NCBI RefSeq assembly: GCF_003586445.1
Contig: NZ_CP030028.1
Coordinates: 944,501-1,008,500, forward strand
Direction: 5' to 3'
Length of the DNA stretch: 64,000 bases
From: Bacillus sp. Y1
Lineage (GTDB): Bacteria > Bacillota > Bacilli > Bacillales > Cytobacillaceae
The number at the start of each line of letters is the position of its first letter. The first letter of the stretch is position 1. The translations under genes were made by a program, and so were the position numbers. The notes beneath the pieces were generated by a model. That model saw only the letters and a program-made list of their open reading frames with translations. It had not been told where the DNA came from and ran no database searches. Positions 24,092-52,730 of this stretch are shown piece by piece.

Positions 24092-24201
24092 ATTTCTTAT
24101 CCAGAGAGGTGGAGGGACTGGCCCTGTGAAGCCTCAGCAACAGATCAACTAGGATACTGTGCTAATTCCAGCGGGTGATTTTTCCTCGATAGATAGGAGC
24201 G
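24092..24201 (+). ncRNA. SAM-I (S-box) riboswitch
   Basis: The S-box core is plain: TTCTTATCCAGAGAGGTGGA, then GGGACTGGCCC, TGTGAAGCCTCAGCAAC, ACTAGGATACTGTGCTAATTCC and a closing GATAGATAGGAG. S-adenosylmethionine binding stabilises the aptamer and allows the downstream terminator at 24221 to form, shutting off the S-methylmethionine uptake and methionine-forming genes when SAM is plentiful. Confidence 0.95.
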
Positions 24202-24324: not shown

Positions 24325-25731
24325 GTGAAAGTGGAAGAACAAGGATTTCAAAGGAAAATGCAAGCAAGACATTTAGTCATGTTATCCTTAGGTGGGGTCA
24401 TTGGGACCGGTTTGTTTTTAAGTTCAGGTTATACGATTCAACAGGCAGGACCGTTTGGAACGATTCTTTCGTACTTAATCGGTGCCTTGGTGGTCTACTT
24501 AGTTATGTTATGTTTGGGGGAGTTATCTGTACATATGCCAGAAACGGGAGCGTTTCATAGTTACGCAGCCAAATATATTGGACCCGCAACAGGTTTTACT
24601 GTTGCTTGGTTGTATTGGTTAACTTGGACAGTGGCACTAGGGTCAGAGTTCACAGCTGCTGGGTTATTGATGCAGCGTTGGTTCCCAAATGTGAATGTAT
24701 GGATATGGAGTGCTCTATTTGCTATTTTAATTTTTTTATTAAATGCTATAACTGTTAAATTCTTTGCTGAATCAGAATTTTGGTTTGCATCCATAAAAGT
24801 TCTTGCAATTTTGTTCTTTATTATTTTAGGTGCAGCAGCTATGATTGGTATTCTGCCAATAGAGGGTTCTGAGACAGCACCCGTGTTTTCAAATATCATT
24901 GGCCAAGGGTTATTTCCAAACGGTGTATTTGCTATTTTTATGACCATGTTGGCAGTGAATTTTGCATTTTCTGGGACAGAATTAATTGGGATTGCTGCAG
25001 GAGAAACTGAAAATCCAGAAAAGGCAATTCCGAAGGCTATTCGAACGACTCTATGGAGATTAATTATCTTCTTTGTCGGAACCATCATTGTGTTATCCGC
25101 TCTACTCCCTTTTTCAGCTGCTGGGGTATTGGAAAGCCCGTTTGTTGCTGTTCTTGATAGAATAGGGGTACCATATGGTGCGGATATTATGAACTTTGTT
25201 ATCTTAACGGCCATTTTATCGGCCGCGAATTCTGGATTATACGCTTCCTCAAGAATGCTTTGGTCACTTGCAGAAAAAGAAACAATCTCTCCAATCTTTG
25301 CAAAGCTAACAAATCGAGGTGTACCACTTAATGCTATTATTTTCAGTATGCTAGGTGGTGGCTTAGCGCTGTTTTCTAGTATTATTGCACCTGATACTGT
25401 ATATATCGTACTTGTGTCCATTTCAGGACTAGCAGTAGTTATTGTATGGATGAGTATTAGTGTTTCACAGTTATTATTCCGTAGACAATATGTAAAAGAA
25501 GGCCATTCCGTGCAAGACCTAGCTTACCGAACGCCATGGTATCCTATCGTGCCGATTGCAGCGTTCCTTCTTTGTCTGGCTTCCTGTATAGGTATTGCTT
25601 TTGATCCAACACAGAGAATTGCACTGTTTTGTGGAATTCCATTTATCTTGCTTTGCTATGCTAGTTATTATATAAAACAAGGGTTTAACAAGAAGGGAGA
25701 CGTTTACGTTGAAAAAAACCAACCCAATTGA
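24325..25731 (+). CDS. mmuP: S-methylmethionine / amino-acid permease
   Basis: A 468-residue APC-superfamily permease with about 12 helices. The N-terminal helix has the substrate-site [12 protein letters not shown] motif, and helix 6 has [19 protein letters not shown]. The GTG start follows AAGGAGAG. It overlaps the homocysteine methyltransferase gene by 23 bp, the mmuP-mmuM arrangement (ybgF-ybgG in Bacillus subtilis), and lies behind a SAM riboswitch, which together support S-methylmethionine as substrate. Other amino acids remain possible. Confidence 0.83.
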
Positions 25732-26647
25732 TGCTATTTTAGAAGATCAGTCACTTATTATTTTAGATGGTGCAATGGCTACCGAGCTTGAATCCTATGG
25801 ATGCAATTTGGATGATCCTCTATGGTCAGCGCGTGTGTTACTTGAGAATCCACAGCTAATTTATCAGGTACATTTAGACTATTTTCAGGCAGGTGCAGAT
25901 TGTGCGATAACTGCAAGCTATCAAGCAACAGTTGAAGGATTTACAAAACGTGGATTACAAGAAGAAGAAGCCTTGGAATTGATAAAAAAGACAGTAGTGC
26001 TTGCGAAGAGTGCAAGAGATGACTTTTGGCAAGAAGAGCAACAACTGGTTAGACCCAAACCATTGGTAGCTGCATCTGTTGGTCCATATGGTGCTTTCTT
26101 AGCAGATGGCTCAGAGTATGTTGGGAACTATGGGGTGAGCGATAATCTCCTTAAAGATTTCCACCGTCAGAGAATGGCGGTACTTATAGAAGCTGGAGCT
26201 GATATTTTGGCATTTGAAACCATTCCTTCCCTTCAGGAGGCCAAAGTATTAATTTCTTTATTGCAGGAGTTTCCTGGAACTTATGCATGGCTTTCCTTCT
26301 CCTTGAAGGACGAAAGGTCAATAAGTGACGGTACGTTGTTACAAGAATGTGCTGAATTGGCAAATGAATGTGAACAGATTGCTGCCGTTGGATTAAACTG
26401 TGCTCCATTAGATTATGTTACAGGAGCCATTAGCAATCTTAGAAACCATACAGAAAAACCTATTATTGTTTACCCAAACTCTGGGGAAACGTATGATCCC
26501 GAGACAAAAACTTGGCACGGTCAAGAATCATGCAATACACTCGAGTCGAAATCAAAAGAATGGTACGAAGCTGGGGCTCGATTAATTGGAGGATGTTGCC
26601 GAACATCACCAAGGGATATTGAAGCGATTGCGGGGAAGTGGCGCTAA
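25709..26647 (+). CDS. mmuM: Homocysteine S-methyltransferase
   Basis: A 312-residue zinc-dependent methyltransferase that moves a methyl group from S-methylmethionine to homocysteine, giving two methionines. The zinc ligands are Cys231 (GLNCAP) and Cys296-Cys297 (GGCCRTSP). [10 protein letters not shown] is the conserved N-terminus. Start TTG with AAGGGAGA at good spacing, inside the end of mmuP, so it is translationally coupled. Repressed by the upstream SAM riboswitch. Confidence 0.9.
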
Positions 26648-26770
26648 TTTCCGAGGAAATATCAAAAACTTCGTGGATATTTACCATGATTCGCTAAAAA
26701 TATATACATCCATATTGCAAAAAACGCAAAGGGTTTCGTTTTCGGGTGCATACGTATAAAATGACACATA

Positions 26771-26810
26771 AAATAGCGTGAGAATTTTGACTCACGCTAT
26801 TTTCTTTTTT
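26771..26810 (+). terminator. Terminator of the mmu operon
   Basis: AAATAGCGTGAG pairs with CTCACGCTATTT and is followed by a T-rich tract. It lies 124 bp after the mmuM stop. Confidence 0.8.
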
Positions 26811-26949
26811 AGTTTAATTGGCATTCGAAAGGACACACTTATTTACAATGATAATACTTGTTTGTACAGTTAAAATATGTTTTCAATTTTAATTTCAAAT
26901 AGAATGTCATTGTAAATGTATTAAACCACTTAAACTTAAAGCATCGGGT

Positions 26950-28442
26950 GTGGTTTCCAAAGGTAATTTCCATCAAGTCCAGTCCGAATAGCCACTGATT
27001 CAGACACCCCAAGGTAATATCATGGAAGTCCAGTCCGAATAACCGCTGGATTCGGACACCCCAAGGTGATATCATGGAAGTCCAGTCCGAATAGCCACTG
27101 GATTCAGACATCCCAAGGTAATATCATGGAATTCCAGTCCGAATAACCGTTGGATTCGGACACCCCAAGGTGATATCATGGAATTCCAGTCCGAATAACC
27201 GTTGGATTCGGACACCCCAAGGTGATATCATGGAAGTCCAGTCCGAATAGCCGCTGGATTCAGACACCCCAAGGTAATATCTTAGAATTCCAGTCCGAAT
27301 AACCGCTGGATTCGGACACCCCAAGGTAATATCATGGAAGTCCAGTCCGAATAACCGCTGGATTCGGACACCCCAAGGTAATATCATGGAAGTCCAGTCC
27401 GAATAGCCACTGGATTTGGACACCCCAAGGTAATATCTTAGAAGTCCAGTCCAAATAGCCACTGGATACAGACACCCCAAGGTAATATCATGGAATTCCA
27501 GTCCGAATAACCGCTGGATTCGGACACCCCAAGGTAATATCATGGAAGTCCAGTCCGAATAGCCGCTGGATTCAGACACCCCAAGGTAATATCATGGAAT
27601 TCCAGTCCGAATAACCGCTGGATTCGGACACCCCAAGGTGATATCATTGAATTCCAGTCCAAATAGCCACTGGATTCGGACACCCAAGGTGATATCATTG
27701 AAGTCCAGTCCAAATAGCCGCTGGATTCGGACACCCCAAGGTAATATCATGGAATTCCAGTCCAAATAACCGCTGGATTCGGACACCCCAAGGTAATATC
27801 ATGGAATTCCAGTCCAAATAGCCACTGGATTCGGACACCCCAAGGTAATATCATGGAATTCCAGTCCAAATAACTGCTGGATTTGGACACCCCAAGGTAA
27901 TATCTTAGAATTCCAGTCCGAATAGCCACTGGATTCAGACACCCCAAGGTATATCTTAGAATTCCAGTCTAAATAGCCACTGGATTCGGACATCCCAAGG
28001 TAATATCTTAGAATTCCAGTCCGAATAACCGCTGGATTCGGACACCCCAAGGTGATATCATGGAAGTCCAGTCCGAATAGCCACTGGATTCGGACACCCC
28101 AAGGTAATATCTTAGAATTCCAGTCCAAATAGCCGCTGGATTCGGACACCCCAAGGTAATATCATGGAATTCCAGTCCGAATAACCGCTGGATTCGGACA
28201 CCCCAAGGTAATATCATGGAATTCCAGTCCGAATAGCCATTGGAATTCAGACATCCCAAGGTAATATCATGGAATTCCAGTCCGAATAACCGTTGGATTC
28301 AGACACCCCAAGGTAATATCTTAGAATTCCAGTCCGAATAGCCACTGGATTCAGACACCCCAAGGTAATATCATGGAATTCCAGTCCAAATAGCCACTGG
28401 ATTCAGACACCCCAAGGTAATATCATGGAATTCCAGTCAGAA
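26950..28442 (-). repeat. Tandem array of about 28 copies of a 52-bp hairpin unit
   Basis: A gene-free stretch of 1.5 kb built from directly repeated 52-bp units (one of 51 and two of 53 bp). Each unit contains arms GTCCGAAT and ATTCGGAC around a nine-base loop such as AACCGCTGG, then CACCCCAAGGTAATATCA, then TGGAATTCCA (palindrome) in most copies. I count 28 hairpin copies from about 26980 to 28400 and a truncated 29th at the right edge. There are no unique spacers. Eleven hairpins are perfect or compensated; fourteen carry one or two changes that leave G-U pairs only if the minus strand is the RNA. The strand given is for that reason and because the operon upstream on that strand reads into it. 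Long open frames across the array are artefacts of the 52-bp period. Confidence 0.9.
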
Positions 28443-28453
28443 TAGCTTATGAA

Positions 28454-28777
28454 TTACAGCCCTTGATTTAATAACTGAGCCTCCTCGCTTATCTCAACTG
28501 TATCCTCTAGTGGAGTTCTAGCAGAAGATGTTTGTTGAACATTTGAGGTAGAATTATTTCCTTGGAGTCTTTGAATTTCCGTTTCGATTTGCTGGATTTG
28601 TTTTTCAAGCTGTTGTATCTCTTTTTGCTTTTTGTCATCGTCTTCTTTAGACGCTTTTACTTTTTCCATTTGATTTTGTAGTTGTTGCTTTTGCTTTTCT
28701 AATGCTGCAATGGAAGTGCTTGATTGATTCATAGAATTATATGCTGTAGAACTTGATGTAATAGAAGATACTTGCAT
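28454..28777 (-). CDS. FlxA-like coiled-coil protein
   Basis: A 107-residue hydrophilic protein. Residues about 22-70 form a long coiled coil rich in Gln, Lys and Glu (ALEKQKQQLQNQMEK, QLEKQIQQIETEIQRLQ), as in the FlxA-like family. N-terminal Ser/Thr-rich and C-terminal Glu-rich tails flank it. There is no signal peptide. GTG at 28789 is too near the AGGAG site, so the ATG at 28777 is preferred, with a rather long 13-base spacing. It is last of a five-gene leftward operon, 30 bp after the cadherin-like gene, and reads into the 52-bp repeat array. Function unknown. Confidence 0.65.
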   Translation of the reverse strand: MQVSSITSSSTAYNSMNQSSTSIAALEKQKQQLQNQMEKVKASKEDDDKKQKEIQQLEKQIQQIETEIQRLQGNNSTSNVQQTSSARTPLEDTVEISEEAQLLNQGL

Positions 28778-28807
28778 AATTTTGTACACGCTCCTAAAAC
28801 AATAATA

Positions 28808-30163
28808 TTAAAAATTAAATAGGGATTTTATCCAGTCCCAAAATGACCCCGAACTTTCTGATGATTGGTTAGACGTTTGCATTGCTTGTTTATTTTGTCC
28901 TCGTTGATTTCCTGACATGTTTGACTGAGCAATTGTAGAATCGGTTGTTTTTGATACAGAAGCTTCGGTAGATTCATCAGTATTAGAGGTTTCGGTAGTT
29001 TCTATTTCTTCGATCTCTTTATCAAAAACTAAAACATATGTTTTACGGTCATCTCCGTTTGTAACGGCTACGGATATCGCAGTTTTTGCTTGATCGGGAA
29101 GAGCAACTGTCGTACTCGTGCTTCCTTCAATTTCAACCTCTGCATCACTTTCACCAGTTGTAGCCGCGATCGTAACACTAGTTACGTCTGTACCGACAGC
29201 AATATGATATGTGTAGGTATCTGAATCAAAGGTTTTATTCCATGTTCCTGATGAAACTGATAGTGCTGATAAATTAGCAGTAGTTGGAGTTTCCGCTTGT
29301 GCTCCTGAACTACTTGTCGAAGTTCCCTGAGCAGTCGATGATGTTCGAGTAGAACCAGACCCAGTTTGTGAAGTTGATACAAGATTGGTAATAGTCGGTT
29401 GGTCCTTAGTTGTTGTAGATTGATTGGTATTTGTTTTTGTATTGTCAGACGTATTAGTATCAGTAGAGCTGTTTACCATAGCCGCTCTTGTGATCGTAAC
29501 AGTATACGTAGACTGATTTCCATTCTCTGCTGTAATAACGAATGACACGGTGGTTTTACCTACTGGGAGTTCAATGGTATGGCCATTCTTTGGATCCACA
29601 GTAATTTCTCCCACTTTAACAGTAGTTGTGTCGACTGAGGTTTCAGGTTTAATAGTTATTGAGCTTATGGAATTTTCTACATCAACTGAGTAACTTGTAA
29701 TAGAAGGTGAAAAATTAAGATCTCCACTAGAAAGAGTAAGATTAGATAGACTGCTATTTTCATTTAATGCTCGAAAAATTGTTAGTGTATATGTAGTTAC
29801 TTCACCACCATTTGTGAGTGTTATTGTAAAAGTATTTTCACCTGTATTAAGTGAATAGATCAGCTGCTCTTTGCTTGTAACTTCCTCTCCATTTATCGTT
29901 AAAAGTGTGCCATCGATTTCAGTGTCCAGAAGTAAACTCATGCTATATATATCATTTGATACAGTTGCTGTGTATGTGGTTACATCTTTCGAAAACGTTT
30001 GATCGAGCTCAAAATCGAGTATTTCGAGTGCTGATAATCGTGTTGTACTTTCTATTGTTGCGTTTTCCTCGGCACTAGCGTGATTAATTGGGGAAGCAGA
30101 AAAAGTTGCGAAGGTAATCATGGATCCAACAATAGCTACATTTAGCCCTTTTTTTATATGCAT
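28808..30163 (-). CDS. Secreted protein with three cadherin-like beta-sandwich domains
   Basis: A 451-residue exported protein. A signal peptide ends at about ASA-EEN near residue 31. Three cadherin-like (PF12733-type) domains follow, each opening with an LSxLxxxxG-like strand and ending in a TYTLTI-like strand: about 40-130, 135-225 and 290-380. Domains 2 and 3 are split by a Ser/Thr/Gln-rich linker of about 60 residues. The tail is polar and ends in an aromatic SFWDWIKSLFNF. GAGGTG favours the ATG at 30163 over 30175. It lies 67 bp after a MacAB-like exporter operon and probably forms its extracellular partner or cargo; that is inference. Confidence 0.78.
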   Translation of the reverse strand: MHIKKGLNVAIVGSMITFATFSASPINHASAEENATIESTTRLSALEILDFELDQTFSKDVTTYTATVSNDIYSMSLLLDTEIDGTLLTINGEEVTSKEQLIYSLNTGENTFTITLTNGGEVTTYTLTIFRALNENSSLSNLTLSSGDLNFSPSITSYSVDVENSISSITIKPETSVDTTTVKVGEITVDPKNGHTIELPVGKTTVSFVITAENGNQSTYTVTITRAAMVNSSTDTNTSDNTKTNTNQSTTTKDQPTITNLVSTSQTGSGSTRTSSTAQGTSTSSSGAQAETPTTANLSALSVSSGTWNKTFDSDTYTYHIAVGTDVTSVTIAATTGESDAEVEIEGSTSTTVALPDQAKTAISVAVTNGDDRKTYVLVFDKEIEEIETTETSNTDESTEASVSKTTDSTIAQSNMSGNQRGQNKQAMQTSNQSSESSGSFWDWIKSLFNF

Positions 30164-30194
30164 GTTGCACCTCATTTCGTAGTTTCTCGTAAAA

Positions 30195-30230: not shown

Positions 30231-31400
30231 TTATTCCTGACGAAGCGCTTGAATCGGATTTAGTTTTGATGCTTTGTTAGCTGGGAACACCCCAAAAACG
30301 ACTCCTATTAATAGGGAAAATAGGAAAGCAAGTAATGTAACGGATGGGGAGTATGAAATGGTGATGCTAGAGAATACTTCCATTAGTTTTGAAACTCCTA
30401 ATCCAATTACAACTCCGATTAAACCTCCGAGTGTACTTAAAACAACTGCCTCTATTAAAAATTGCAATAATATTGATCTACGATTGGCTCCAATGGCTTT
30501 TCGTATTCCGATTTCTTTCGTTCGCTCAGAAACTGAAACGAGCATGATGTTCATGATTCCGATACCGCCTACCAGCAAGGAGATGCTTGCTATGCCACCA
30601 AGCATAAGGGTCATTGTATCGGAAACAGAGGTCATCGTCTCCATTAAATCCTCTTGGCTTGATACAGAATAATAGTCGCTTGAATTCGGGAAAAGGGTAG
30701 TCATCACACCTTGTACTTGGAACATGGCACGATTTACATAATCTTCACTCTCTGCTTGAAAGTAGACTGTTCCAATTGCTGTACTCTGCGTTATTCTCTG
30801 GGTGGTTGAAAGGGGAGTGATAATAACATTATCCCCACTCGTACCGAGAGAGGTACCAACAGACTCTAGAACTCCCACTACTTGGAAGGATACACCTTCA
30901 ATTTGTACGCTCTGTCCAACTGGGTTTTCATATGGAAACAAGGTTTCAGCAGTAGTGGATCCAAGGACAACCACCTTCTGTCGTAGTTCATCATCCATAT
31001 CGGTAATGAATCGACCTTGACTCAAGATTAAATTTCTAACGGATAAGTATGAAGAGTTGGTACCTGTTATGGAAACTTGTGCTGTGTTTTCCTGATTTTT
31101 TGCATTTATTCGCCCAGTAACAACAGGGGACACCTCTGAAATACCGTTCAATTCCTGGAATTCTAGAATTTGGTCCTCCTTCAATTGAACAGATTCCGTA
31201 TCATTCACACTCAAGGTAATTAGGTTCGTTCCTAAGCTTCCGATTTCATCTGTTACTGACTGTGAGGAGCCTTGTCCGACTCCGACAAGCGTGATAACTG
31301 AGGCAACTCCAATAATAATTCCTAACATCGTTAAAATAGCCCGGATTTTATTGCTCTTGATACTCTTGAGTGCCATTTTGATAGATTCGACTAGGTTCAA
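30231..31400 (-). CDS. MacB-like ABC exporter permease
   Basis: A 389-residue permease of the MacB/FtsX type: helix 1 near residues 20-45 (TMLGIIIGVASVI), a large extracellular MacB_PCD domain (about 50-260), and three C-terminal helices with SERTKEIGIRKAIGA between them. A GGAGGTGA site sits just before TTG at 31400, giving the typical start MNLVESIKMALKSIKSNK; longer in-frame starts have no such site. It overlaps the ATPase gene by 53 bp. Closest Bacillus subtilis analogue in layout is yknXYZ, which defends against the SDP toxin. Confidence 0.85.
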   Translation of the reverse strand: MNLVESIKMALKSIKSNKIRAILTMLGIIIGVASVITLVGVGQGSSQSVTDEIGSLGTNLITLSVNDTESVQLKEDQILEFQELNGISEVSPVVTGRINAKNQENTAQVSITGTNSSYLSVRNLILSQGRFITDMDDELRQKVVVLGSTTAETLFPYENPVGQSVQIEGVSFQVVGVLESVGTSLGTSGDNVIITPLSTTQRITQSTAIGTVYFQAESEDYVNRAMFQVQGVMTTLFPNSSDYYSVSSQEDLMETMTSVSDTMTLMLGGIASISLLVGGIGIMNIMLVSVSERTKEIGIRKAIGANRRSILLQFLIEAVVLSTLGGLIGVVIGLGVSKLMEVFSSITISYSPSVTLLAFLFSLLIGVVFGVFPANKASKLNPIQALRQE

Positions 31401-32088
31401 ACCAATCACCTCCATTTTCATAAAGCTGTCCATCATGGATTCGAACGATGCGATTGGTTTCCTTCGCAACCTCTAAGTCATGGGTAATAATGACAATCGT
31501 CTGTCCGCGTTTGTTTAATTCTTTTAACATCTGTAATAACTCGTTACTAGTTTTGCTATCAAGTGCACCAGTAGGCTCGTCAGCAAGAAGTACAGGAGGA
31601 TCACCGGCTAACGCTCTTGCTATGGCAACCCTTTGCTGCTGTCCACCTGAAAGTTGTGTTGGCATATGGTGGATTCGTTCACCTAGGCCCACTCTTTCCA
31701 GACTATTAATTGCTTTTTCTCTACGTTCTTTTACACTTAATCCTCTATAAACAAGAGGAAGTTCGACATTTTCAAGGGCGGTCAATTTATTTAGTAAATT
31801 AAAATTTTGAAAAATAAACCCGATTTTCACATTTCTTATGGCTGCAAGCTCATGATCCTTCATATTGTTGACTTTCTTTCCGTCAAGCAAATATTCACCT
31901 GAGTCTGGTTTGTCGAGGCAACCGATCATATTCATAAAGGTAGATTTTCCTGAACCAGATGGACCGATGATAGAAAGGAAGTCCCCTTCATTAATTTGAA
32001 GGGAGACCTCTTGTAGTGCTTTGACTGTTTCGCTGCCTAGTTCGTATGATTTGGACATTTGATTGATTTCAATGACTGGTTTTATCAT
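31348..32088 (-). CDS. MacB-like ABC exporter ATPase
   Basis: A 246-residue ATPase of the LolD/MacB class. It has Walker [10 protein letters not shown], signature LSGGQQQR, Walker B LLADEPTGALDS and a switch His in IITHD. The ATG at 32088 overlaps the tail of the adaptor gene closely, and a purine-rich GGCGGCGAG precedes it. Together with the adaptor and permease it forms a tripartite exporter of peptides or other envelope-active compounds. Confidence 0.87.
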   Translation of the reverse strand: MIKPVIEINQMSKSYELGSETVKALQEVSLQINEGDFLSIIGPSGSGKSTFMNMIGCLDKPDSGEYLLDGKKVNNMKDHELAAIRNVKIGFIFQNFNLLNKLTALENVELPLVYRGLSVKERREKAINSLERVGLGERIHHMPTQLSGGQQQRVAIARALAGDPPVLLADEPTGALDSKTSNELLQMLKELNKRGQTIVIITHDLEVAKETNRIVRIHDGQLYENGGDWFEPSRIYQNGTQEYQEQ

Positions 32089-32089
32089 A

Positions 32090-33061
32090 TTACTCGCCGC
32101 CTCTTCCTGCTCTATCAGTAGGAGGGGTGCCCATTCCACCATCACTTGGGAAGCCGCTTGCTCCGCCAGTTCCAGAGAAGTCTCTCATTGCCCCTCGATC
32201 GGTAGCTGAGTCACTGCTTGAAGAAATGGTGATAGCTAATTGTATAATTTGCCCTTCCTCTAGTCCCGAAACAATCTCAATATTTTGGTCATCATTGATA
32301 CCAGTTTCGACAACTTGTTGGGTAGTCACAGCTTCTTCACTTTCACTTGTCTCAGACTCTTGGATCGTTACAAATTTTTCATTGCCATTAATTTTTACAG
32401 CTTCAATCGGAACATAAAGAACACTTTGTTTGCTTTCAGTTGTGATATTTACTTCAGTTGACATTCCAATTAAAAGATCTTTTGAATCATCAAATTGTAC
32501 GGTTACCTCAAAGCTAGAAACACCATTTGAAGAAGTTCCTTCTTTAGATACCTTTGTAACGGTACCTGTAAATGATTCATCAGGATACGCGCTTGCGGTG
32601 ATTGTTGCTACTTGCCCTTCTTTAATACTTGCAATATCTAATTCATCTACCCCGATCACTGTTTGAAGAGTTACATAATCGGTCACATGTGCAACAACTT
32701 GTCCGTTCTGTAGGTTGTCTCCAGCTTCCACATCAAGAGTGGTAATTGTTCCGGCATGTGGGGCAGTAATCGGATCGCTTCCATCCGTAAAAGTAATTAA
32801 CTCTGCTCCTTCTTCGACGACATCGTTCTCACTAACAAGAACCTCGTCCACTTCTCCTCCAGAGTCTGCAGTCACGTCGTTGCTTTTAATGGAAGCAACG
32901 GTGCCAGAACCACTAACTTGTACCTCGATATCTCCTCTTTGTACGGTAGAAGTCATGACTTGCGCTTCTGCAGTAGCAACGGTTTGGTTACTTTTATAAA
33001 ACCAAAAGCCCCCTCCTGCTAAGAGAATTACAACAACTCCAATAGACATCCATTTCTTCAA
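32090..33061 (-). CDS. HlyD/MacA-type membrane-fusion adaptor
   Basis: A 323-residue adaptor. An N-terminal membrane helix (about 5-22) is followed by the lipoyl-like and beta-barrel domains (VSGSGTVASIKSND, ITAPHAGTITTLDVEAGD, GTVTKVSKEG). The final 45 residues are Gly/Ser/Asp/Arg-rich and low in complexity. TTG start with GAGGAGG eight bases upstream. It is first of the exporter operon (adaptor, ATPase, permease, cadherin-like, FlxA-like). Upstream on the minus strand, TTTAAGG occurs twice 11 bp apart (33117-33134), a spacing used by OmpR-type response regulators. Confidence 0.83.
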   Translation of the reverse strand: MKKWMSIGVVVILLAGGGFWFYKSNQTVATAEAQVMTSTVQRGDIEVQVSGSGTVASIKSNDVTADSGGEVDEVLVSENDVVEEGAELITFTDGSDPITAPHAGTITTLDVEAGDNLQNGQVVAHVTDYVTLQTVIGVDELDIASIKEGQVATITASAYPDESFTGTVTKVSKEGTSSNGVSSFEVTVQFDDSKDLLIGMSTEVNITTESKQSVLYVPIEAVKINGNEKFVTIQESETSESEEAVTTQQVVETGINDDQNIEIVSGLEEGQIIQLAITISSSSDSATDRGAMRDFSGTGGASGFPSDGGMGTPPTDRAGRGGE

Positions 33062-33190
33062 ACCTTTTACCTCCTCAATATGAAAACATTGTTATGAATT
33101 CATTATTACGAGGAAACCTTAAAAAATCCTTAAAGATTTGAAAAGGGAGAATGGAATTACCAAGAGTAAGGGGAATTCTGTTAGTAAAAA

Positions 33191-33803: not shown

Positions 33804-33828
33804 AGCTAATAAATTACAATTCATTTTG

Positions 33829-34079
33829 CGATGAAAAGGACATGAATGCTACTGTACGGTTAACAGAGAGGGAAGACAAAGGCTGGAATCTTCCTAACGC
33901 AGCTGTCGCATTTACCACCTTGGAGCTGTATTGGTGAAATCAAAGTAATCAATACCGTAGCTGCTACGATACAGCAAAACGAAGCCATCTCTCCTACTTT
34001 AGAGGTGGGAAGTTGGGTGGAACCACGAGACAAACACACTCGTCCCTTGTTAGAGGGATAGGTGTGTTTTTTGTATTTT
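33829..34079 (+). ncRNA. T-box riboswitch 1 (threonine)
   Basis: A tRNA-sensing leader. Seen in order: the stem I start (GATGAAAAGGACATG), AGAGAGGGAAGA, GCTGGAATCTTCC, an ACCACC stretch at 33914-33919 suited to an ACC (Thr) specifier, the T-box core TGGGTGGAACCACG (34014-34027), and the terminator ACACACTCGTCCCTTG ... AGGTGTGTTTTTT (34034-34072). Uncharged tRNA-Thr would stabilise the antiterminator and permit readthrough. It is followed at once by a second, nearly identical copy. Confidence 0.93.
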
Positions 34080-34094
34080 AAAAATAAATAATTC

Positions 34095-34347
34095 ATGCAA
34101 TGAAAAGGACATGAGTGCGATTGAACGGTTAACAGAGAGGGGAGACAAGGCTGGAATCTTCCTAACACAGAAGTTGCATTTACCACCTTGGAGCAGTATT
34201 GGTGAAATCACAGTAATCAATACCGTAGCCGCTACGATACAGCAAAACGAAGCCGCCTCTCCTATTTTTAGAGGTGGGAAGTTGGGTGGAACCACGAGAC
34301 AAACACACTCGTCCCTTGTTAGAGGGACAGGTGTGTTTTTTTATTTT
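34095..34347 (+). ncRNA. T-box riboswitch 2 (threonine)
   Basis: A near-copy of the leader at 33829, about 266 bp downstream: same stem I start, ACCACC at 34182-34187, the T-box core ending AACCACGAG at 34290-34298, and its own terminator (about 34304-34343). Two terminators in series must both be read through to reach thrZ, giving tight control. Bacillus subtilis thrZ is known to have three such leaders in tandem. Confidence 0.93.
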
Positions 34348-34365
34348 ATAAAGGAGGCTATATTA

Positions 34366-52569: not shown

Positions 52570-52730
52570 AAAGGCTCTCTAAGCAGTATCGGTGAGAGCA
52601 AAAAGCTGTCTAGGGTTCCGTTGGTTTAGTGTATGATCCACCCCTTACACTAGTATCAAGTCTGGTCCAAGAGAGAGCGTATAGAATTTTTTTTCTATAT
52701 ACACGGAAGGATAAAAGCCTGGGAGATTCA
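52570..52730 (+). ncRNA. Guanidine-I (ykkC) riboswitch
   Basis: The conserved core is plain: CTAGGGTTCCG (52610-52620), TCTGGTCCAAGAGAG (about 52661-52675) and ACACGGAAGGATAAAAGCC then TGGGAGA (about 52701-52726). An extra hairpin, GGCTCTC / GAGAGC, precedes the aptamer (from 52572). Guanidine binding would stabilise the aptamer and prevent the terminator at 52709, turning on the operon. Confidence 0.93.

Follow-up and report, generated by a model that had tools for sequence, protein, structure and literature searches.

A 52-bp tandem array of Bacillus sp. Y1 belongs to a chromosome-wide satellite set and is most likely a lattice of inverted half-sites for a putative DNA-binding protein

Two convergent genes of Bacillus sp. 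Y1 are separated by about 28 near-identical copies of a 52-bp unit whose two arms can pair with each other, and this locus raises the question of whether the arms matter as hairpins of an RNA, as sites in duplex DNA, or not at all. We analysed a stretch of 64,000 nucleotides around the array (the window, to which all coordinates refer). A first-pass annotation of this DNA had described a hairpin-repeat array of about 28 copies downstream of an exporter/cadherin/FlxA operon. The array was confirmed by TRF, which placed it at 26978-28446 with a period of 52, 28.3 copies, 91% matches and a score of 2299, and by a recount of its hairpins. The features on which the analysis rests are as follows.

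25709..26647, plus strand: homocysteine S-methyltransferase gene (PF02574), the convergent neighbour across the array
26770..26803, listed on the plus strand: intrinsic terminator beyond the array (terminator scan)
26978..28446, no strand: 52-bp tandem array of 28 hairpin units plus decayed ends, unit GTCCGAAT-N9-ATTCGGAC-N27
26982..27005, no strand: first hairpin unit still recognisable, with a loop of 8 (hairpin recount)
27864..27888, no strand: unit with a compensated double change, GTCCAAAT/ATTTGGAC (hairpin recount)
28384..28408, no strand: last hairpin still recognisable, from which a decayed part-unit runs to about 28446
28454..28789, minus strand: FlxA-like gene, the last before the array (PF14282)
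28808..30175, minus strand: cadherin-like beta-sandwich protein (PF12733)
30231..31469, minus strand: MacB/FtsX-type permease
31348..32145, minus strand: ABC transporter ATPase
32090..33061, minus strand: HlyD-type membrane fusion protein

The operon call was borne out by the identification of the FlxA-like, cadherin-like, permease, ATPase and HlyD-type products. The array is intergenic; flxA and the methyltransferase gene, which are convergent, flank it with their 3' ends. A terminator scan of 26500-28900 gave two sites, both on the plus strand, namely 26770-26803 and a weak one at 28639-28653 inside flxA; as had been claimed, none lies between flxA and the array, and minus-strand read-through into the array is therefore plausible. 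From the symmetry of its hairpin, the terminator at 26770-26803 may also stop minus-strand transcripts that have passed the array, with a minus-strand tail of only TTTT. The same hairpin is found in a relative carrying about 1.5 units (L243), and two further sites (L244 and L245) have a different terminator-like hairpin and no array.

Several familiar kinds of element were considered for the array. Protein coding was rejected, since 52 is not divisible by 3 and the array has only short ORFs that overlap one another in several frames. CRISPR arrays combine repeats of dyad symmetry and constant spacing with unique spacers; the linkers here are near-copies of one another, as the annotation had also noted, and a CRISPR array was rejected as well. 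Type III toxin-antitoxin RNA arrays stand directly upstream of a toxin gene; the array here has no such neighbour, being flanked by the methyltransferase gene and flxA. Rfam at gathering score listed no family within the array. Its only hits in the window were two riboswitches outside the array, a SAM riboswitch (24094-24199) upstream of a permease-like long ORF (24325-25731) and a Guanidine-I riboswitch (52599-52727). Elsewhere in the window, a 268-bp tandem duplication (33827-34352, 91% matches) overlaps the start of a threonyl-tRNA synthetase-like ORF; it resembles a doubled T-box leader, with no T-box listed by Rfam at gathering score.

The array is not alone on its chromosome. The host contig, a single sequence of 5.03 Mb with dnaA at its start, carries at least 16 arrays of 8-28 units each with the architecture given above; those read are the window array, nine others (L036-L043 and L045) and six more (L248-L253). 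The further arrays have 66-73% identity to the window array. Matches at 4.82 Mb suggest one more array as likely, and those at 0.54, 3.34 and 4.52 Mb are single matches or a remnant. Among ten host arrays compared, linkers differ from array to array; by eye, the linker preceding the unit at 26982..27005 is closer to those of other arrays than to those of its own. Similar arrays were also found in other genera of the order when the unit was searched in relatives, a check that the annotation had proposed. Because the architecture recurs both on the host chromosome and in other genera, the window array is beyond chance. It belongs to a set of non-coding 52-bp satellite arrays spread over the chromosome.

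Across the order, 9 of 397 sampled genomes match a pattern of GTCYGAAT arms and 11 of 397 contain at least one perfect palindrome, while a scan of named genomes gave at least 118 stretches with arrays. Among the matches listed are the genera Aquibacillus, Neobacillus, Mesobacillus, Peribacillus, Robertmurraya, Natribacillus, Ammoniphilus and others, and the species Bacillus methanolicus, there in strain DE0196, and Sporosarcina globispora. Some genomes holding GTCCGAAT arrays also contain 52-bp arrays with quite different arms (L158:6755-7287, L189:5937-6156, L149:17-242, L086:2846-3101 and L100:1026-1235). In B. litorisediminis, a 21-bp unit is repeated in tandem 16.8 times (L078:5282-5633), which is the other size class among published repeats.

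The window array belongs to the Bacillus 52-nt tandem repeats published by Subirana and Messeguer (PMC8161180), in whose survey 1886 of 4029 Bacillus tandem repeats have units of 51-53 nt. Its period and copy number agree with their definition (unit of 51-53 nt, at least four copies), as do its non-coding, intergenic position, the presence of several arrays of the same length and different sequence in one genome (at least 16 here), and a species-specific sequence with partly conserved position. One of their families, oceanisediminis 79_52_5, has the arms GTCCGAA/TTCGGAC. These authors described the 52-nt repeats as constant in length, with "no sequence conservation" and of unknown function, suggested nucleoid proteins or small RNAs, and observed that a short signal is often accompanied by its reverse within the same repeat. 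Among the papers listed by a literature search on the arm sequence, the repeat or a bound protein, only those of Subirana and Messeguer and an editorial citing them were relevant, which does not establish absence from print. A word search of a transcriptome paper on B. methanolicus (PMC4342826) for repeat, CRISPR, palindrom and hairpin gave no match.

We then asked what is constant in these repeats. A first set combined 80 of the at least 118 named loci with the loci found by BLAST and the window array, and came to 119 arrays, two of them duplicates, and 1165 units; 1134 of these units have a loop of 9, and the step is 52 in 953 cases. Likewise, over all fetched loci with duplicates removed (153 arrays, 1449 units), the loop was 9 in 1416 of 1449 and the step 52 in 1192 of 1296; most loci of both sets had been fetched using the 9/52 geometry itself. 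The 37 arrays found by BLAST and not by fixed geometry (412 units) gave a loop of 9 in 396 of 412 and a step of 52 in 325 of 375, other steps being 51 in 15 and 53 in 33; skipped units were rare (step 104 in 2 of 375). Errors of period showed no sign of compensation between adjacent steps (2 pairs of +1/-1 vs 10 of +1/+1). Arm positions carried 1.4-1.9 bits of information each (116 arrays), loop positions at most 0.6, and linker positions at most 0.4 save five at 0.7-1.3. Diversity per site within arrays was 0.032 in arms, 0.128 in linkers and 0.167 in loops (95 arrays with at least four usable units each, up to two of them duplicates), the arms being less diverse than the linkers in 92 of 95. 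With duplicates removed and all fetched loci included (122 arrays), the values were 0.029, 0.125 and 0.162, with arms lower in 118 of 122. Units were recognised by their arms, with at most 3 mismatches, so arm conservation is flattered in these figures.

The same geometry extends to repeats with other arms. Among 25 published consensus units with other arms, GTC-N19-GAC ranked first when all inverted triplet pairs were counted at every span: it occurred in 5 of 25 against a null mean of 0.18, and only 2 of 1000 shuffled sets reached 5 for any pair. Of 27 published units, 9 contain an 8-N9-8 inverted repeat in which 7 or all 8 positions pair; loops of 7 or 11 occurred in 10 and 9 published units, about as commonly as a loop of 9, and the axis can be common to them. 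Of the 397 genomes sampled across the order, 84 contain a generalised frame, (GTC-N19-GAC-N27)n, searched as three frames 52 bp apart; they fall in 36 of 136 genera, and the highest count on one strand was 460 matches. The control, the same pattern read backwards, was non-zero in 9 genomes with at most 11 matches, so some low frame counts may reflect chance or another frame. Four genomes (G105, G187, G085 and G213) matched only this reversed control (CTG..CAG), perhaps another 52-bp family with its own frame.

Within the frame, the inner half-sites vary between genomes (GTCCTTCAT, GTCGTTCAT, GTCATCGAG, GTCACATAGA, GTCCAGTAGA, GTCAGAAT, GTCTTTTTGA and others). Of the six positions 4-9 of the half-site, 4.68 on average were identical within an array, 3.89 between arrays of one genome and 2.20 between genomes. 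This set comprised 41 named loci with one entry each from 27 genomes; the seven multi-array genomes, four with two arrays only, gave 52 ordered pairs. An earlier count (54 arrays) gave 4.69, 4.11 and 2.15, with pieces of one array counted as several and unnamed loci used. The host genome contains no run of three units without A at position 6 in both arms. Such a pattern would be expected if a lineage-specific factor bound these sites as a homodimer. The available text of PMC8161180 (main text) and PMC8625621 was not found to state a common GTC-N19-GAC frame, for which the sequences compared here provide evidence; nor does the main text of PMC8161180 state the 8-N9-8 inverted half-sites, the sharing of half-sites within a genome or the lack of arm covariation, all of which were found here.

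Taken together, our preferred reading, to which we assign a probability of about 0.5, is that the array is most likely a duplex-DNA lattice of inverted half-sites for a putative dimeric, lineage-specific DNA-binding protein. Each unit would offer two inverted half-sites (GTCCGAAT here), 17 bp apart from centre to centre and recurring at 52-bp intervals of about five B-DNA turns. A homodimeric protein of lineage-specific specificity would read them, and the 52-bp spacing would be needed for its assembly along the DNA. The arrays may grow and shrink by unequal crossing-over or slippage, as is suggested by their higher-order repeats and by the copy numbers at one orthologous site given below. The complex might serve nucleoid anchoring, titration or the upkeep of the satellite itself, with chromosome organisation as a first guess; transcription of the array as the 3' end of the operon is probable and would be incidental. 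A duplex-bound precedent of similar geometry is the CIRCE operator of HrcA, a 9-N9-9 inverted repeat (TTAGCACTC-N9-GAGTGCTAA) that stands in single copy at promoters and is bound by a dimer. CIRCE shares with the array the inverted half-sites around nine bases; in contrast, its arm sequence is different, and the arrays are tandem and lie most often in convergent or co-directional gaps. Identity with this operator was rejected, the window array having other arms and lying at two convergent 3' ends.

Some observations speak against such a lattice. The 17-bp half-site spacing (1.6 turns) puts the two half-sites on different faces of the DNA, and a partner DNA-binding protein was sought and none found. 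More than one half-site type occurs in each of two genomes (G238 and G324), so one factor per genome is too simple. Arms agree better within one array than between arrays of one genome (4.68 vs 3.89). In L325 (from G238) and L279, one half-site type gives way to another, both arms of each unit being of the same type. The fixed spacing could also stem from a copying mechanism.

A rival reading is that of a self-maintaining satellite without host function, whose arms and 52-bp spacing would be recognised by an enzyme of amplification or dispersal (a nickase, a transposase-like protein or a recombinase) and whose arrays the host would tolerate in 3'-3' gaps. We consider this possible, though rather unlikely. 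In its favour, the distribution is patchy within genera, with many frames in some sampled genomes and none in others (G226 and G294; G032 and G113), and copy number varies at one orthologous site. There, the copy count that the annotation had called for gave 28 units in the window and about 1.5, 0 and 0 in three congeners with flxA (G002, G001 and G004). At one of these sites (L245, from G001), the exporter and cadherin genes are absent between an flxA remnant, which matches residues 73-110 of 111, and a region matching window position 33092 onwards. By eye, arrays look decayed in genomes with few perfect palindromes, and higher-order periods of 103-261 are present, both of which would fit a satellite. 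The same holds for a preference for convergent gaps, as harmless insertions would show: 37 of 112 array gaps are convergent, compared with 51 among the 302 remaining gaps that measure 100 bp or more (p=6e-4) and 96 among all 573 remaining gaps (p=2e-4), with orientation classes resting on mechanical ORF calls. Depletion of divergent gaps depends on the control, being seen against the gaps of at least 100 bp (17 of 112 vs 91 of 302, p=0.002) and not against all 573 (107 of 573, p=0.42).

On the other hand, an amplification enzyme was sought and none found. REP/BIME elements are dispersed intergenic palindromes tied to RAYT transposases; they resemble the arrays in being dispersed, intergenic and palindromic, but lack a 52-bp tandem lattice, and PF01797 does not track the arrays. 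Y1 transposases of this family (RAYTs not separated from IS200) occur in 21 of 26 genomes irrespective of arrays, including the array-free G113 and G294, and are absent from the frame-rich G007, which makes a Y1/RAYT partner unlikely. Searches of plasmids, phages and viral contigs gave no match to the unit, which argues against the satellite reading and led us to reject an origin from such elements. Moreover, congeners carry arrays at orthologous flanks, judged by flanking-protein orthology, for 6 of the 10 host loci compared. A common neighbour gene was rejected too: in all-against-all BLASTP the ORFs on either side of the arrays sorted into orthologues and small groups of up to 9 sequences, with no gene family recurring beside most arrays.

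The reading put forward by the annotation, in which serial hairpins form an expressed RNA at the operon's 3' end that would protect the mRNA or act as a protein sponge, is weakened by our results, and we now regard it as improbable. Some evidence does favour it. Besides the lack of a listed terminator before the array, transcription of 52-nt repeats has been reported for B. coagulans in the accessible text of PMC8625621. In the window array, the recount of 28 hairpins gave 10 perfect ones, one perfect via a double change (27864-27888), and 14 that pair by G-U only with the minus strand as RNA; one pairs only with plus-strand RNA (the 9th) and two with neither strand (the 10th and 20th). The earlier hairpin classes thus stood for every unit except the 9th, which had been counted as broken on both strands. 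Changed pairs favour minus-strand G-U by 16 to 2. The comparison of transitions with unpaired bases, another check proposed earlier, was split: at arm G/C sites ts/tv was 3.4-3.7 vs 1.3-1.4 in loop and linker, as a wobble-tolerant stem would give, but there was no such excess at arm A/T sites (0.75 vs 1.07 outside the arms).

In contrast, pairing between the arms is not visibly selected. Over 117 arrays with 1112 hairpins, 13 double changes were seen (11 paired), with 12.6 expected by independence and 13.3 by within-array shuffling; over 153 arrays with 1416 hairpins there were 16 (13 Watson-Crick) for 12.4 and 15.3 +/- 2.6 expected, so double changes are near chance. Nor did the G-U changes follow transcription: in a test of 45 co-directional arrays, the transcribed strand was favoured in 12 and the other in 14 (p=0.85). 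Unit orientation relative to co-directional genes was 23:22, which shows no preference. The proposed folding check gave modest results (two two-unit pieces on both strands, z from -0.5 to -2.2). In several relatives, the arms of one unit sometimes do not pair though both fit one half-site (GTCCATTAGA/GTCTTATAGA, and GTCTTTGAGA with GTCCAATAGA), and an RNA would not need an exact 52-bp spacing. In the other-arm families, paired cells numbered 1526 vs 1498 +/- 8; covariation was rejected, since 25.6 + 6.6 of the 27.6 excess cells came from two mixed arrays, without which the pairing excess sums to slightly below zero. These 2 of 54 other-arm arrays mix two half-site types, each type in matched pairs. 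With double changes near chance, no transcribed-strand bias and modest folding scores, arm sequence seems to matter more than pairing.

Finally, a neutral minisatellite shaped only by strand-biased C deamination, which the annotation had offered as another reading, is very improbable: CpG sites do show the highest transition frequency within arms, and unequal crossing-over would explain homogenisation, but deamination alone does not account for arm variability that is roughly a quarter of that in linkers (0.032 vs 0.128; 0.029 vs 0.125), arms hold across genera while linkers diverge, the 9/52 geometry is nearly fixed, and the strand direction of G-U changes is inconsistent across arrays (37 vs 32).

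Beyond this locus, the half-site lattice invites a broader and more tentative proposal, which we hold with some doubt: the 52-bp satellites of Bacillales may largely form a single system in which inverted GTCnnnnn half-sites make up a chromosome-wide lattice, and a dimeric protein family whose specificity shifts with the sites would read them. A common GTC-N19-GAC frame with lineage-specific half-sites offers a concrete bait for finding the protein, and through this frame the purpose of bacterial satellite DNA becomes directly testable. CENP-B boxes are a conserved protein-binding box within centromeric satellites that have higher-order repeats; the arrays resemble these satellites in the conserved box and the higher-order repeats, and differ in that CENP-B satellites are eukaryotic and the bacterial protein counterpart is only putative. 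If the proposal is true, binding specificity and hundreds of dispersed sites would have shifted together between lineages, and the arrays would be a bacterial counterpart of satellite DNA with its box-binding protein.
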